Made by a program: the position numbers and the translations under genes
Shown here: piece by piece, positions 2,097 to 25,273 of the stretch
How positions within the stretch are numbered: position 1 is the stretch's first letter
How the letters are laid out: each line of letters begins with the position of its first letter
Source of the DNA: a virus
DNA length: 28,100 bases
Reading direction: 5' to 3' (one strand)
IMG/VR virus record: IMGVR_UViG_3300032278_000091
Location: 1 to 28,100 of that record
The notes under the pieces: model-generated
Seen by the model: only the letters and a program-made list of their open reading frames with translations
What the model was told of the DNA's origin: nothing
Database searches by the model: none

Positions 2097-4988
2097 ATGT
2101 CAGTTAAAAAGTTTAAGTTTGTATCCCCGGGAGTTTTCGTTAATGAGATTGATAATTCACAATTAACAGCTACCCCATCCGGAATCGGCCCGGTAGTTAT
2201 TGGCAGGTCAGAAAGAGGCCCCGCCCTTCGGCCAGTGCGAGTTGATTCTTTTTCAGATTTTATTAACACTTTTGGAAACCCAATTCCTGGCGGCCAAGGC
2301 GGCGATGTCTGGAGAGACGGAAATTATACCGCCCCAACATATGCCGCATATGCTGCTCAAGCATGGCTGCGAAATAATTCACCAATTAATTTTGTGCGCC
2401 TTCTCGGCGCAGAACACAGCGAAGCAACAACCGCAGGTCAAGCAGGGTGGAATTTGGGTACCCCAACTGTCGACCCGCTTTCAAACCATGGCGCCTTTGG
2501 GATTTTCATGTGCAATTCTGCGTCGGCAGCGACAGCGCTTACTGGCGCGTTGGCGGCAATTGTTTACGTATCCACTGGCAGCGTGAGACTGGAAGGCAAC
2601 CTCCGCAATACATCTGCCACAACCTCTTCTGCCGCGGCGCTCATTGCTGGCAATGAAAACGGCGATTTTACATTTGAGGCCACTGATGGCAGCGGCAACA
2701 CTGCGGATAAGTTTATGTTCAATCTTGACCGGTCCTCGGATAGGTACATCCGCAAAGTAGCAAACACAAACCCGACATTAACCAATAGCAATATTACTGA
2801 CAGCGACGCGTCAAAAACGTACTGGGTTGGTCAAACATATGAAAGAGCAGTCACAGATGCAGTAACTTCGACCGACCGATTTGCTTTCTTGTTGGCCTTG
2901 GAAAGCGGCTCAGCTAATGGCGCCGATTTTGGCATGGGCCTGCAAGCGCCAAAAACCGGCTGGTTTATTTCGCAAGATCTTGGCCAACCCGGCAATTTTA
3001 ATGTATATAACTCTCCGAAAAAACTATTTAAACTAGTCTGTATGAATACAGGCGAGTGGGAACAACGAAATCTCAAAGTTTCCATTCAAGATATTAAAGC
3101 CCCCCAAAATGATTATGATCCATATGGCACTTTCACGGTGGTCCTTAGAAAGATCGGCGATAAAGACGCAGCGGTGCAAGTTGTGGAACGATTTTCTCAG
3201 TGTAGCTTGAACCCCAATTCGCAAAATTATATTGGGCGTAAAATTGGTGATCGATATACAGCCTGGGATGAGACTGAAAAACGTTATAGACTATATGGCA
3301 ACTACCCCAACATGTCAAAGTTTATAAGGGTTGATATGGCACCCGAGGTCGCAGCTGGCACTGAAGCCGCAGCGGCACTTCCGTTTGGCGTTTACGGCCC
3401 ATTGCGATTTAAGGGCTTCTCTCTTCTGTCTGGCGCAGCTGGGCACCCGTGCGACTTTTTCGCCCTAGGAACCCACCAGTCGGGTGCAGCCACCGCCGAA
3501 GCAAACAGTTTTGTCGAGGAAGGAGATCTCCCTTGGACCCCAACTGCCGATAACAACCCGGTGGGCGGCATTGATTTTGGACCCTCTGGTTCCCACATCG
3601 TCTCCGCAGGACTCGGCGGTCTCACCGCATTCACTGGTGCCTTCCCGTTCCCGGCGATAGAACTTCGCTCTGGTAGCGCTGACACTAACTTGTCTAGCCC
3701 GAAAGACGCCTACTGGGGCGCCTCTGTACATAGAACTGCTACTTCAACTCGATTTGAAGAAAGTGTAGCAGAAATGTGCCGCGCTCTCCCGGGCAACTTG
3801 GATAGCCACACGGCGGACGTCTCGACAGAGCATATGTGGATTTTCACATTAGATAATTTGGTTGCGTCTGGAGGTTCGCTGCAGCAAGTGGTATATGTCT
3901 CCGGTTCGCGCACCTTGGAAGAATCGATTACGGCTACTAGCTCTTCATATAAAGCAGTCTTGGAACATGGTTATGATAAATTTACCACTGTTTTCGCTGG
4001 CGGTTTTGATGGTGTAGACATTACTGAAAAAGAGCCTTTTGGCAACCACGCTATCGGCTCAGGCGAGCGCACTAGCTATGAATATAATTCAATTAAGCGC
4101 TCCATTGATAGTCTTTCTGATCCGGAGGCGATTGAGTTTAACTTGGCCGCGATTCCGGGTTGTGTTAACACAGGGCTGACCAGTCATTTGATTAACACGT
4201 GCGAGTCGCGCGGCGACGCACTAGCAATTATTGATATCGAAAATGATTATACGCCTTCTACAGAATCGACCAACGATGAGGCCACTCGCGTGAAGACTGT
4301 ATCTCAGGCGGTAACTTCAATGCGCGACCGCGGCCTTAATTCCAGCTATGGCTGCGCATTCTATCCATGGGTACAGATTCGAGATACCATCCAAGGTACC
4401 CAATTGTGGGTACCGCCTTCAGTTGTGGCTCTCGGCGCAATGGCCAGTTCAGAAAGATCTTCGGAACTTTGGTTTGCTCCCGCGGGCTTTACTCGCGGCG
4501 GTTTAACTGGCGGAGCAGCAGGCATCCCAGTTATTGGCGTACGCCAGCAGCTAACTTCTAAAGAGAGAGACACACTTTATCAAGCAAATATTAATCCGAT
4601 TGCTTCTTTCCCGGCAGAGGGTATTGTTATTTTTGGCCAGAAAACGCTACAAGCTACGCCATCAGCTCTTGATCGAATTAACGTACGCAGATTGATGATT
4701 TATATTAAGAAAGAGATATCTAGAATGGCAGCAACAATATTGTTTGATCAAAACGTTTCTGCAACATGGGACCGATTTACCCAACAGGCCGGACCATTTT
4801 TAAGCTCAGTTCAGACGAGATTGGGATTGTCTGATTTTAAAATTATTTTGGACGAAACTACAACAACACCGGATTTAGTGGATAGAAATATTTTGTATGC
4901 TAAAATTTATTTGAAACCCGCGCGAGCCATTGAGTTTATTGCGCTTGATTTCGTAATTACGAATACTGGCGCAGCTTTTGAAGATTAA
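2097..4988 (+). CDS. Contractile tail sheath protein (gp18-like)
   Basis: This 963-residue protein opens with a typical sheath N-terminus: 'FVSPGVFVNEID' then 'GPVVIGRSERGP' and 'FSDFINTFGNP'. It closes with the C-terminal sheath domain: 'RRLMIYIKKEISRMAATILF' followed by W-D-R-F, then 'RNILYAKIYLKPARAIEFIA'. Sheath subunits form the contractile sleeve around the tail tube and contract to drive it through the envelope. T4 gp18 has 659 residues, so about 300 residues extra lie in the middle, probably as one or more surface-exposed insertion domains. A clear AAGGAG precedes the start. It is followed by the tube gene, the canonical order. Protein identity is secure; the nature of the insertion is unknown. 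Confidence 0.93.
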   Translation: MSVKKFKFVSPGVFVNEIDNSQLTATPSGIGPVVIGRSERGPALRPVRVDSFSDFINTFGNPIPGGQGGDVWRDGNYTAPTYAAYAAQAWLRNNSPINFVRLLGAEHSEATTAGQAGWNLGTPTVDPLSNHGAFGIFMCNSASAATALTGALAAIVYVSTGSVRLEGNLRNTSATTSSAAALIAGNENGDFTFEATDGSGNTADKFMFNLDRSSDRYIRKVANTNPTLTNSNITDSDASKTYWVGQTYERAVTDAVTSTDRFAFLLALESGSANGADFGMGLQAPKTGWFISQDLGQPGNFNVYNSPKKLFKLVCMNTGEWEQRNLKVSIQDIKAPQNDYDPYGTFTVVLRKIGDKDAAVQVVERFSQCSLNPNSQNYIGRKIGDRYTAWDETEKRYRLYGNYPNMSKFIRVDMAPEVAAGTEAAAALPFGVYGPLRFKGFSLLSGAAGHPCDFFALGTHQSGAATAEANSFVEEGDLPWTPTADNNPVGGIDFGPSGSHIVSAGLGGLTAFTGAFPFPAIELRSGSADTNLSSPKDAYWGASVHRTATSTRFEESVAEMCRALPGNLDSHTADVSTEHMWIFTLDNLVASGGSLQQVVYVSGSRTLEESITATSSSYKAVLEHGYDKFTTVFAGGFDGVDITEKEPFGNHAIGSGERTSYEYNSIKRSIDSLSDPEAIEFNLAAIPGCVNTGLTSHLINTCESRGDALAIIDIENDYTPSTESTNDEATRVKTVSQAVTSMRDRGLNSSYGCAFYPWVQIRDTIQGTQLWVPPSVVALGAMASSERSSELWFAPAGFTRGGLTGGAAGIPVIGVRQQLTSKERDTLYQANINPIASFPAEGIVIFGQKTLQATPSALDRINVRRLMIYIKKEISRMAATILFDQNVSATWDRFTQQAGPFLSSVQTRLGLSDFKIILDETTTTPDLVDRNILYAKIYLKPARAIEFIALDFVITNTGAAFED

Positions 4989-23370: not shown

Positions 23371-23392
23371 ATTATAGGCAGAGCATTGCCAT

Positions 23393-23414
23393 TGGGATGC
23401 TTGGCCCTTTAACT
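23393..23414 (+). promoter_or_regulatory. Conserved leader element shared with gp32-like gene
   Basis: It carries the blocks TGGGAT, TGGCC and TTAACT in the same order and nearly the same spacing as 17866-17887, followed by AAAAGGAGAAAA. A small GGCA/TGCC hairpin (23377-23390) lies just upstream and is not present in the gp32 leader. Confidence 0.5.
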
Positions 23415-23437
23415 TGCTTATAAAAGGAGAAAACACT

Positions 23438-23875
23438 ATGACTAGAGCAATTACACTACATCGACCCGGACTTTTGGGAGGACGCGTCTTTGACAACGTA
23501 TTCGACAATTTTTTTAATGATTCCTTCCCAAATCTATTGCGACAGACAACGCAGGGATATCCCGTAACAGACATTTTCCGGAATGAAAATGGAGATACGG
23601 TGATGCAACTCGCCTTGGCTGGCTTTACAAGAGACAATCTCTCAATTGAGGTTAAACCAGAAAAGCGAAGCCTTACTGTCCGAGCTAGCACAGGAGCAGA
23701 AACCGACGATGAATTGGATCGTCGCATTGCGCGCCGGAGCTTCGAGAAGACTTATGTAAACTACGATGATAACTTGGATCTTTCAAGTATTTCTGCGAGT
23801 TTCGAAAATGGACTTCTCACGGTCGTGGTACCAACTCGGCCAGAAGTTAAGCCCATTGCTGTCGAAATCAAATAG
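23438..23875 (+). CDS. hsp20: Small heat shock protein (Hsp20/alpha-crystallin)
   Basis: This 145-residue protein starts at the ATG at 23438, eight bases after AGGAG; an in-frame TTG at 23414 is not needed. The alpha-crystallin domain contains 'YPVTDIFRNENGDTVMQLAL', then A-G-F, then 'RRIARRSFEKTYV'. It has the hallmark 'ASFENGLLTVVVP' (A-x3-N-G-x-L) and a C-terminal I-A-V anchoring motif. Hsp20 proteins hold unfolding proteins in a soluble state; they are common in T4-like cyanophages, where they probably assist folding of virion or scaffold proteins. It has its own promoter and a likely terminator. Confidence 0.92.
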   Translation: MTRAITLHRPGLLGGRVFDNVFDNFFNDSFPNLLRQTTQGYPVTDIFRNENGDTVMQLALAGFTRDNLSIEVKPEKRSLTVRASTGAETDDELDRRIARRSFEKTYVNYDDNLDLSSISASFENGLLTVVVPTRPEVKPIAVEIK

Positions 23876-24021: not shown

Positions 24022-24183
24022 ATGGAAGTTGGCGACTTAGTTCAACACGCTGCGTACGGCTGTGGTATTATACTAGACTTAAGTTTGCCTACTCCCTTAT
24101 TCCCATATCAGGTTGCAACGGTTTGCTTTACTAGTGGGCGAACAGAGGAAGTCGTAACGACGTTTTTATATAAAAAAGGTTGA
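24022..24183 (+). CDS. Small 'VGDLV' protein (KOW/CarD-like beta strand protein)
   Basis: This 53-residue protein begins MEVGDLVQHAAYGCGIILDL, the pattern of small SH3-like or CarD-N/KOW-type barrels (V-G-D-L-V...G-I-I-L), and then has a strand-rich rest. I chose the ATG at 24022 because homology-like sequence begins there. An upstream in-frame ATG at 23959 would run through the terminator-like hairpin. There is no ribosome site, consistent with leaderless translation. A second gene of the same style lies at 25838. Function unknown. Confidence 0.6.
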   Translation: MEVGDLVQHAAYGCGIILDLSLPTPLFPYQVATVCFTSGRTEEVVTTFLYKKG

Positions 24184-24209
24184 CATCTTTCAAAAGAACA
24201 TGCTATAAT
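24180..24209 (+). promoter_or_regulatory. Promoter of the tRNA genes
   Basis: TTGACA (24180-24185) and TATAAT (24204-24209) are both perfect consensus boxes with an 18-base spacer, 22 bases before the first tRNA. This is the strongest promoter in the window. Confidence 0.85.
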
Positions 24210-24231: not shown

Positions 24232-24424
24232 ACCAGGGTAGCTCATCGGAAGAGCGCCGCCCAGTAGGAAACCAAAGATCCGCACACCAGACAAACACGG
24301 GGATGATCGACCCGCTGGTAAAGTAGTGGCTGACTGGGTAAAGAGGTGGAAACACTGCGAGGGTTTTGAGCAGTGGATCTATGTTACGAGGCGGAGGTAG
24401 GTGGTTCAATTCCAGCCCCTGGTA
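24232..24424 (+). tRNA. tRNA with a ~121-base insertion in the anticodon loop (possibly Val-UAC)
   Basis: Acceptor strands ACCAGGG (24232-24238) and CCCTGGT (24417-24423) pair perfectly. The D stem is GCTC/GAGC with a GG-containing loop. The anticodon stem is CCGCC (24257-24261) with GGCGG (24390-24394). A 5-base variable loop follows, then a T stem with one G-G mismatch and the loop TTCAATT. Discriminator A is followed by CTA, so CCA is not encoded. The anticodon loop is 128 bases long. Only removal of 24263-24383 gives a normal 7-base loop with T33, C-TTAC-GA, and anticodon UAC (Val). That splice and identity are inference. The rest of the molecule is a well-formed tRNA, so the gene looks functional if the insert is removed. 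Confidence 0.75.
24263..24383 (+). other. Structured intervening sequence within the tRNA gene
   Basis: The insert can form AGATCC (24276-24281) with GGATCT (24375-24380), ACCAG with CTGGT (24286-24290, 24315-24319), CGGG with CCCG, and CACTGC with GCAGTG (24353-24358, 24370-24375). ACTGGG (24333-24338) can pair with CCCAGT (24260-24265), which spans the proposed 5' junction and would make a pseudoknot. It ends in G, as group I introns do. However, the 5' exon does not end in U, the length is below known group I introns, and I see no standard core. It may be a degenerate or novel tRNA intron. Confidence 0.45.
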
Positions 24425-24433
24425 CTAAAATAA

Positions 24434-24510
24434 GCGCTTGTAGCTCAGTAGGTTAGAGCGCCACTCTTATAAGGTGGTAGCCCTTGGTTCAAGTCCAAGC
24501 AAGCGTACCA
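24434..24510 (+). tRNA. tRNA-Ile (anticodon UAU), CCA encoded
   Basis: Acceptor GCGCTTG pairs with CAAGCGT. The D arm is GCTC/GAGC. The anticodon stem is CCACT/GGTGG with loop CTTATAA (anticodon TAT, 24468-24470). The T arm is CTTGG-TTCAAGT-CCAAG, with discriminator A and encoded CCA (24508-24510). It reads AUA. Bacteria normally read AUA with a lysidine-modified CAU tRNA, so a UAU tRNA frees the phage from that modification. It lies 9 bases after the first tRNA and shares its promoter. Confidence 0.93.
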
Positions 24511-24527: not shown

Positions 24528-24707
24528 ATGAAGAAGATTGTTGTATTAATAGCCGGAATGATTTTTTGTGGTGGGTGCCACATTCCATATCCTTCTAGCG
24601 GCCGCAGGGTACTACAACCCTATGAAAGATACGAGGAAGTTTGCACCACGAAAGTAAATAAGAAAGGCGAAAAAGAAACTCGCTGCCGATGGGTTCGGTC
24701 AAGATGA
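24528..24707 (+). CDS. Small lipoprotein
   Basis: This 59-residue protein starts at the ATG at 24528, seven bases after AAAGGAG (24514-24520). The N-terminus 'MKKIVVLIAGMIFCGGC' is a lipoprotein signal with the acceptor Cys at residue 17; the F-C-G-G-C lipobox is slightly unusual. The mature part is short, with a Tyr/Arg-rich middle, one Cys pair in the C-terminal half and a basic end. It is the first of a run of lipoproteins, and its stop overlaps the next start (ATGA). Function unknown; anchoring in the outer membrane and a role in superinfection exclusion are possibilities. Confidence 0.7.
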   Translation: MKKIVVLIAGMIFCGGCHIPYPSSGRRVLQPYERYEEVCTTKVNKKGEKETRCRWVRSR

Positions 24708-25273
24708 AATGTTTAAATATGAGGCACCCCCTGCTTCTTTTTTCAATCTTTCTAGCGCTGGGGTGCTCGCAGCCAGATGATAGTCCGATTACGTGGACTG
24801 AGTGCGGCGGCAACATAGGAGACCACGCGTGCAATTTTTCTTTTATGGACCAAACAGGAAACGATTGGTCGCTATATAACCACCACGGCAGCATTATTGT
24901 GCTCGATTTTTCTGCGATGTGGTGTGACTATTGTAAGAAAGCCGCGGAAGTTGCGCAAGAGATTCAAAATACACATGAAAACGATGATGTCGTTTGGGTG
25001 ACAATTTTACTTCAAAATAATTACGGGCAACAGCCCACCTTGGAGAACCTTAACGAATGGGCATCTTCATTTGAAATGACGTCTTCCCCCGTTTTGTCAG
25101 GCGACGCTAGCATAATTGACCCCACCGCTCAAAAGGGTTATAACGTAACAACGTGGCCGGGCCTCGTCGTCATTGATAGAGATATGACAATCTCTCATGA
25201 GCTTAAGGGGTGGAACGAGATGCAAATTAAGTTTTGGTTAAAGCAACTTACAAAGAACAGAGAGGCGCGTTGA
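24704..25273 (+). CDS. Thioredoxin-like (TlpA/redoxin-type) lipoprotein
   Basis: This 189-residue protein starts at the ATGA overlapping the previous stop. The lipoprotein signal 'HPLLLFSIFLALGC' gives a lipidated Cys at residue 21. The mature part has a thioredoxin fold: 'SIIVLDFSAMWCDYCKKAAE' with the active site W-C-D-Y-C, then 'VVWVTILLQN', and a cis-Pro region 'VTTWPGLVVIDRD'. It should work in the periplasm as a thiol oxidoreductase, like TlpA/ResA/DsbE. The neighbours at 25292 and 26213 are Cys-rich lipoproteins and are obvious candidate substrates. A membrane-anchored thioredoxin is unusual in a phage. The domain call is firm; the physiological role is inference. Confidence 0.88.
   Translation: MKCLNMRHPLLLFSIFLALGCSQPDDSPITWTECGGNIGDHACNFSFMDQTGNDWSLYNHHGSIIVLDFSAMWCDYCKKAAEVAQEIQNTHENDDVVWVTILLQNNYGQQPTLENLNEWASSFEMTSSPVLSGDASIIDPTAQKGYNVTTWPGLVVIDRDMTISHELKGWNEMQIKFWLKQLTKNREAR

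Follow-up and report, generated by a model that had tools for sequence, protein, structure and literature searches.

What kind of RNA would be made from a transfer RNA (tRNA) gene whose anticodon loop holds an insertion longer than the tRNA itself? This question is raised by a gene of 193 nucleotides (nt) at positions 24232-24424 (plus strand) of a 28.1-kb virus record, IMG/VR IMGVR_UViG_3300032278_000091, of which positions 1 to 28,100 are referred to as the window. A complete cloverleaf can be read directly from the letters of this interval, and its anticodon loop is interrupted by 121 nt (24263-24383); these stems and the homologues described below bear out the initial annotation, which had proposed a tRNA gene with an insertion of about 121 bases at this site. 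Judged by sequence comparison, the insert-bearing tRNA forms a genuine and conserved family of RNAs, which has no match among those catalogued. We favor, with a probability of about 0.5, the reading that it would be an unspliced chimeric phage non-coding RNA, in which the tRNA body scaffolds a conserved folded domain of 109-121 nt that stays permanently in the anticodon loop.

Homologues were found in at least ten contigs, which carry eight distinct sequences: that of the window, shared by L082, and those of L002, L092, L093, L095, L097, L132, and L216. An exact pattern of the insert retrieved L082 (IMGVR_3300020389_000216), which is identical over all 193 nt while its flanks are 87-96% identical. 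This preservation of the 193 nt between diverged flanks, together with the further insert-bearing homologues, rules out the assembly artefact that the initial annotation had considered. The diverged copy L002 was reached via the neighboring exonuclease protein, and pattern scans of IMG/VR gave L092, L093, L095, L097, L132 (with the near-identical L152 and L217), and L216. One pattern, AAACACN{3,24}GTGGATCTATG, matched 119 stretches, nearly all of them apparently from a conserved bacterial prophage gene, and the only homologues among them were L132 and L152. L088, L089, L090, L094, L096, L218-L221, L268, and L269 were discarded as chance pattern matches.

In all true matches the insert lies in the anticodon loop of a tRNA and is followed on its 3' side by a valine-type anticodon. 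The scans covered all IMG/VR contigs with patterns that were not restricted to tRNAs, and no insert outside a tRNA was obtained; since only tRNA-embedded copies were recovered in this way, the insert is seemingly confined to tRNAs. Only chance matches were obtained in a one-genome-per-species set of GTDB, scanned with one pattern, and among annotated phages and plasmids, and the family has no match in Rfam 15. A covariance model of the insert detected one copy in each contig searched; the gene is always present once per contig, usually within a tRNA cluster. Between divergent phages the insert is 65-97% identical. As the mean identities of insert (0.80) and exons (0.77) are nearly equal, the rate of conservation does not tell which part is functional. 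UvsX-family matches were observed in nine of the ten contigs searched. Since RecA brings up this family in control genomes as well, such matches agree with a T4-like origin of every member but do not prove it.

By itself, the folding energy of the gene in the window does not stand out (z = -1.6 for the entire RNA and -1.3 for the insert), and the case for a real structure therefore rests on comparison. When a 17-pair structure was scored on the alignment, 95% of the cells were paired, versus 28-44% after sliding by one to three columns. The covariation score was above that of all 500 shuffles, although the relatedness of the sequences inflates such counts. Furthermore, enforcing the cloverleaf cost at most 2 kcal/mol relative to the free minimum in all eight distinct sequences. 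The acceptor, D, anticodon, and T stems have standard lengths, and all but the D stem show covariation: acceptor pair 4 occurs as A-U, C-G, or G-C, the T-stem pairs as G-C, U-A, or C-G, and in the anticodon stem of L097, which is short, C-G is replaced by A-U and G-C by C-G. The D stem is invariant across the members. The initial annotation had described all tRNA stems as present and strong; all are present in the gene of the window, with one G-G mismatch in the T stem.

Within the insert (helices in Table 1), P_C reads CCAG/CUGG, CCGG/CCGG, or ACGG/CCGU in different members, and in hairpin E two adjacent compensatory pairs turn CAC/GUG into CGU/ACG in L216, the fourth pair of this hairpin being U-A or C-G. 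The initial annotation had likewise described the insert as folding into several helices. P_A and P_B vary on one side only, and the G-U pair of P0 has become G-C in L097; the last pair of P0 competes with P_A for U24380, and C24280 is common to P_A and P_B. Two elements are unpaired in the model and strongly conserved, namely a stretch of roughly 20 nt that joins P_B to hairpin E (approximately CGAUNGGGUCUNAGGYGGAAA in the relatives) and a GGAARCC bulge; conservation of this kind typically marks a site of binding or catalysis and may do so here. Additional pairings were considered and rejected. The hairpin D loop (AUCG) could pair with the joining segment (CGAU) over 4-5 base pairs (bp) in five members and about 3 bp elsewhere, with no covariation. 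The pseudoknot that the initial annotation had drawn between 24333-24338 and the 5' junction (ACUGGG/CCCAGU) has its full 6 bp in the window sequence only and is not a conserved guide pairing. A coding function was likewise rejected: although some members keep one frame open, the inserts differ in length by 9, 10, and 12 nt and show covariation, which argues against coding.

The fate of the insert was addressed by exact removal of the block common to the members and by counting the length of the resulting anticodon arm, which is expected to be 17 nt. The arm has 15 nt in L097 (4 bp + 7), 15 nt in L132/L217 and L216 (CCGUU-UACGA-AGCGG), 14 nt in L093, L002, and L092, and 26 nt in L095. A decoding-type arm of 17 nt, with a 7-nt loop and U33, resulted from precise excision only in the window and the identical L082, and no common shift of both ends was found that would restore such a loop throughout the family. 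In L095 the CCGUU strand that directly precedes the insert is flanked by additional bases, CCGC and UAUAUAA (2439-2455, minus strand), and the 5' junction side thus tolerates length change. The elbow bases G18-G19 and C56 are present in six of the eight distinct members, whereas L093 is without G18-G19 and L216 without both G18-G19 and C56, which disfavors decoding in these two. Because excision gives abnormal arms in the seven other homologues, and in view of the elbow losses, we rank the unspliced scaffold above an intron. Of the two possibilities left by the initial annotation, the re-purposed tRNA is thereby preferred and the self-splicing element less favored.

Directly supported are the family, the common site, the covarying helices, and the abnormal arms after excision. 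A scaffolding role of the tRNA is further supported because all eight distinct homologues occupy one tRNA site and none lies outside a tRNA, because both the tRNA body (acceptor, T, and anticodon stems) and the insert (P_C and E) covary, because the cloverleaf-enforced fold is near the minimum throughout, and because RNA ligases of three families were not found in nine of the ten possibly incomplete contigs searched. RNAs placed in the anticodon arm of tRNA scaffolds are stably made in Escherichia coli (PMC3753655). Transcription of the RNA would start at a sigma-70-type promoter or proceed as part of a tRNA cluster, its ends would be trimmed by the tRNA-processing enzymes of the host, and the tRNA body would protect it, presumably giving a stable product of about 180-190 nt. 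The functional part would be the inserted domain with its closing helices P0 and P_A, the arm formed by P_B, P_C, and D, hairpin E, and the conserved single-stranded joining segment; in infected cells its most likely partner would be a protein, the ribosome, or a second RNA. The family probably goes back to a single event that placed the domain between positions 32 and 33 of a tRNA-Val; loop bases dispensable for decoding may later have been lost in some lineages.

Several observations weigh against this reading. Removal of the 121 nt from the window leaves the loop C-UUACGA, with U33 and the anticodon UAC, and hence a canonical Val-UAC arm of 17 nt (5 bp + 7). A valine anticodon is kept beside the insert in every member, as UAC in the window, L097, L132, and L216 and as GAC in L093 and L095; in L002 and L092, AC is preceded by the last G of the insert, and a valine anticodon results only if that G is counted. 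The kept anticodon would be better explained by decoding than by a scaffold. In addition, the neighboring phage tRNAs mostly read A-ending codons, a set into which Val-UAC fits.

These points lead to the principal alternative, which we consider doubtful but the most credible of the rivals: the insert may belong to a new class of very small introns (109-121 nt) and be removed, by itself or with the help of protein, to restore tRNA-Val. Besides the canonical arm in the window and the 7-nt loop in L097, it would account for the G at the end of all inserts and for contig G015, in which an ordinary tRNA-Val(UAC) with encoded CCA (L254, 99-174) stands alongside an insert-bearing GAC version that would complement, and not duplicate, it. 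The divergence of insert and exons is discordant in two pairs, as expected from horizontal intron transfer: the insert is 96% and the exons are 77% identical between L132 and L002 (Fisher p = 0.0002), and the values are 76 and 92% between L095 and the window (p = 0.013), both pairs having been picked after looking. Such discordance could mean that the insert moved between tRNAs, but the exon tree is too weakly supported to establish transfer, and the conflict between insert and exon trees that the pairwise identities suggested was not supported by the trees. A class of introns of about 110-120 nt between positions 32 and 33 of phage tRNA-Val that are removed through their own fold or with protein aid and also move independently of their exons is, in our estimate, rather unlikely. 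Whichever single pair of splice sites is chosen, 7-nt loops with U33 do not result throughout; the loops would have 4 or 5 nt in the L002, L093, L132, and L216 types and be far longer in L095, and the lost elbow bases of L216 and L093 and the failure to find the insert at any other site also speak against an intron. A guide pairing with the exons is not conserved: the candidate between GGYGG of the insert and the 5' anticodon strand (CCGCC or CCGUU) is possible in most members, broken in L097 and partly in L093, and without clean covariation. If the insert is spliced, it would represent a new intron class in phage tRNAs, with members about half as long as the smallest self-splicing introns known to us.

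Intron types that are already established fare worse. A minimal, reduced group I intron would agree with the site in the anticodon loop and with the 3'-terminal G, which is the only group I feature common to the inserts and weak alone, but it is the least credible of the explanations considered. No Rfam group I model matched even at an E value of 10, and among helices common to all members we found no P3/P7 core and, more generally, no conserved P3-P8 core with a G-binding site in P7. The 5' exon ends in C (window, L097), U (the CCGUU types), or A (L095), so a conserved U at this position, paired with an intron guide, is absent, and there is no exon-guide pairing in all members. The doubt that the initial annotation had expressed about group I was well placed. 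Moreover, all phage introns known to a 2014 review of bacterial group I introns resided in protein genes (PMC3984707). Excision by an endonuclease and joining by a phage or host RNA ligase is improbable, too. T4-like phages can possess tRNA-repair enzymes, and G013, the 284-kb contig with the L097 member, encodes a T4 Rnl1-like ligase (257721-258224, minus strand); however, Rnl1, Rnl2-type, and RtcB ligases were not found in the other nine contigs searched, one of them of 190 kb, a search limited to phage contigs that may be incomplete. A bulge-helix-bulge (two 3-nt bulges and a 4-bp helix) was not seen at the junctions, where inspection by eye showed P0 to be bordered by 1-2 nt on its 5' and 5-7 nt on its 3' flank, and the loop-length problem applies to any precise excision. 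Self-cleaving ribozymes, including those resembling the hepatitis delta virus (HDV) ribozyme such as theta, gave no Rfam covariance match at E values up to 10. An HDV-like helix order, tried by hand because of a GGCGAU-GGGG resemblance, was rejected since the strand order does not fit.

The abnormal anticodon arms and the loss of elbow bases in some members could also be those of a degenerating tRNA pseudogene or of a functionless chance insertion. This is very unlikely and largely contradicted by the covariation, as the insert remains 65-97% identical with compensatory changes among divergent phages, the gene is unchanged in L082 despite diverged flanks, and a perfect promoter precedes it in three contigs. 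As a special case of the scaffold, the RNA might act as a decoy whose retained valine anticodon region binds or depletes a host enzyme attacking or charging tRNA-Val, for example a defense anticodon nuclease. The valine anticodon retained in a loop that may not decode and the single copy per contig, usually in tRNA clusters, are in line with such a role, but the strongest conservation lies inside the insert and not in the anticodon, and we give the decoy little credence. Taken together, the known kinds that were tested (group I intron, bulge-helix-bulge intron, transfer-messenger RNA (tmRNA), and known self-cleaving ribozymes) each fail a defining feature.

Table 1. Features of the insert-bearing tRNA gene and its immediate surroundings, in coordinates of the window.
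Feature	Position	Strand	Details
Promoter-like sequence	24180-24209	+	TTGACA-18-TATAAT, 12/12; about 22 nt upstream of the tRNA, equal distance in L082 and L002
tRNA, 5' part	24232-24262	+	acceptor, D arm, 5' strand of anticodon stem, C32 at 24262
Acceptor stem	24232-24238/24417-24423	+	7 bp; 5' strand ACCAGGG
D arm	24241-24255	+	D stem 24241-24244/24252-24255
Anticodon stem	24257-24261/24390-24394	+	5 bp; CCGCC/GGCGG
Anticodon loop	24262-24389	+	128 nt
Inserted conserved RNA domain	24263-24383	+	121 nt, AGUAGGAAACC...GGAUCUAUG (AGUAGG...CUAUG); 109-121 nt in relatives
Helix P0	24264-24382	+	closes insert; GUA 24264-24266/UAU 24380-24382
Helix P_A	24276-24380	+	AGAUC 24276-24280/GAUCU 24376-24380; third pair A-U or G-U
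Helix P_B	24280-24329	+	CCGC 24280-24283/GUGG 24326-24329; G-U in window, A-U in relatives
Helix P_C	24286-24319	+	ACCAG 24286-24290/CUGGU 24315-24319
Hairpin D	around 24299-24313	+	inside P_C; GGG/CCC
Hairpin E	24353-24375	+	CACUGC 24353-24358/GCAGUG 24370-24375
tRNA, 3' part	24384-24424	+	U33, UAC (valine anticodon) 24385-24387, G37, A38
T arm	24400-24416	+	T stem 24400-24404/24412-24416; 4/5 pairs, one G-G mismatch
Discriminator A73	24424	+	gene without encoded CCA
tRNA-Ile(UAU)	24434-24510	+	ordinary; starts 9 nt downstream of the insert-bearing tRNA

The window stems from a T4-like phage, as judged by homologues of tail sheath, gp32, UvsX, and exonuclease, a T4 baseplate protein, and a DnaB-type helicase, and the insert-bearing tRNA is situated between the exonuclease gene and the tRNA-Ile gene. 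The strong promoter that had been proposed to precede the gene is indeed present: the -35/-10 pair is perfect, with a spacer of 18 nt in the window and L082 and of 17 nt in L002. Several members are situated behind other tRNAs and are likely cotranscribed with them. Searched against annotated phages, the joined exons gave as best nearly full-length match the tRNA-Val of the Caulobacter phages CcrColossus and CcrPW (74% over 97%). The initial annotation had pointed to tRNA finders and Rfam models: ARAGORN with introns allowed detects the gene, with inconsistent anticodon assignments, and the group I models of Rfam do not. Default ARAGORN and Rfam miss it altogether, and tRNA finders at default settings would overlook genes of this type whichever reading is true. 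Directly downstream of the tRNAs (24689-25273) lies a phage gene with an AhpC/TSA-thioredoxin-like domain, and at 23380-23443 a weak, sub-threshold match to the ROSE_3 thermometer was observed (26 bits, cut-off 43). A second conserved stretch adjoins the insert-bearing tRNA in two phages that otherwise differ (L097, 4304-4436, minus strand; L093, 1642-1774, plus strand); it is 85% identical over 134 nt, apparently non-coding, rich in possible hairpins, and without an Rfam match above threshold.

Among the known systems, tmRNA shares with the insert-bearing tRNA a natural tRNA-like body with a long structured insertion on the anticodon side; the stability and tRNA-like processing of tmRNA are also proposed for the RNA described here. 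However, tmRNA lacks a D stem, is alanine-type, and contains a tag-encoding frame, whereas the RNA described here has intact D and anticodon stems, is valine-type, and carries an insert of about 110-121 nt whose length varies by non-multiples of three. Neither a tmRNA gene (ARAGORN) nor an Rfam tmRNA match was found at the locus, the sole nearby match being weak and on an ordinary tRNA-Leu. If tmRNA is taken as a general kind of tRNA-based chimeric RNA, the insert-bearing tRNA would be a variant of that kind. The group I introns of bacterial tRNA-Leu, tRNA-Ile, and tRNA-Arg are likewise anticodon-loop insertions that end in G and have their exons paired in the anticodon stem; they differ in their core, their 5'-exon U, their recognition by Rfam, and in exon loops that rejoin to 7 nt, which those of most members here do not. 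The smallest group I introns known to us have about 200 nt, and the insert has about half that size.

Theta ribozymes, which are HDV-like and adjoin phage tRNAs as a processing element of the 3' trailer (PMC10879173), are also structured RNAs tied to tRNA genes of tailed phages from metagenomes (PMC10879173), but they do not lie within the anticodon loop, and the insert has no HDV-type match. The rnaC and rnaD genes of T4 (species 1 and 2) similarly encode small stable RNAs in the tRNA cluster of a T4 phage; homology to the insert was not detected, as its covariance model gives no match in the T4 tRNA region. The fold of T4 rnaC (L222, 1409-1547, minus strand; species 1 RNA) combines a T arm and 3' end resembling those of a tRNA with long extra arms, and this stable phage RNA may be an older case of the tRNA-like kind. 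A parallel to an unspliced RNA comes from engineered tRNA scaffolds, in which a foreign RNA replaces the anticodon loop and is protected by the tRNA in E. coli (PMC3753655). Those constructs are man-made, whereas the insert-bearing tRNA is natural and conserved; if it is indeed unspliced, it would be a natural tRNA-scaffolded RNA and a new RNA class, and phages would employ the same trick that laboratories use for stabilizing RNAs.
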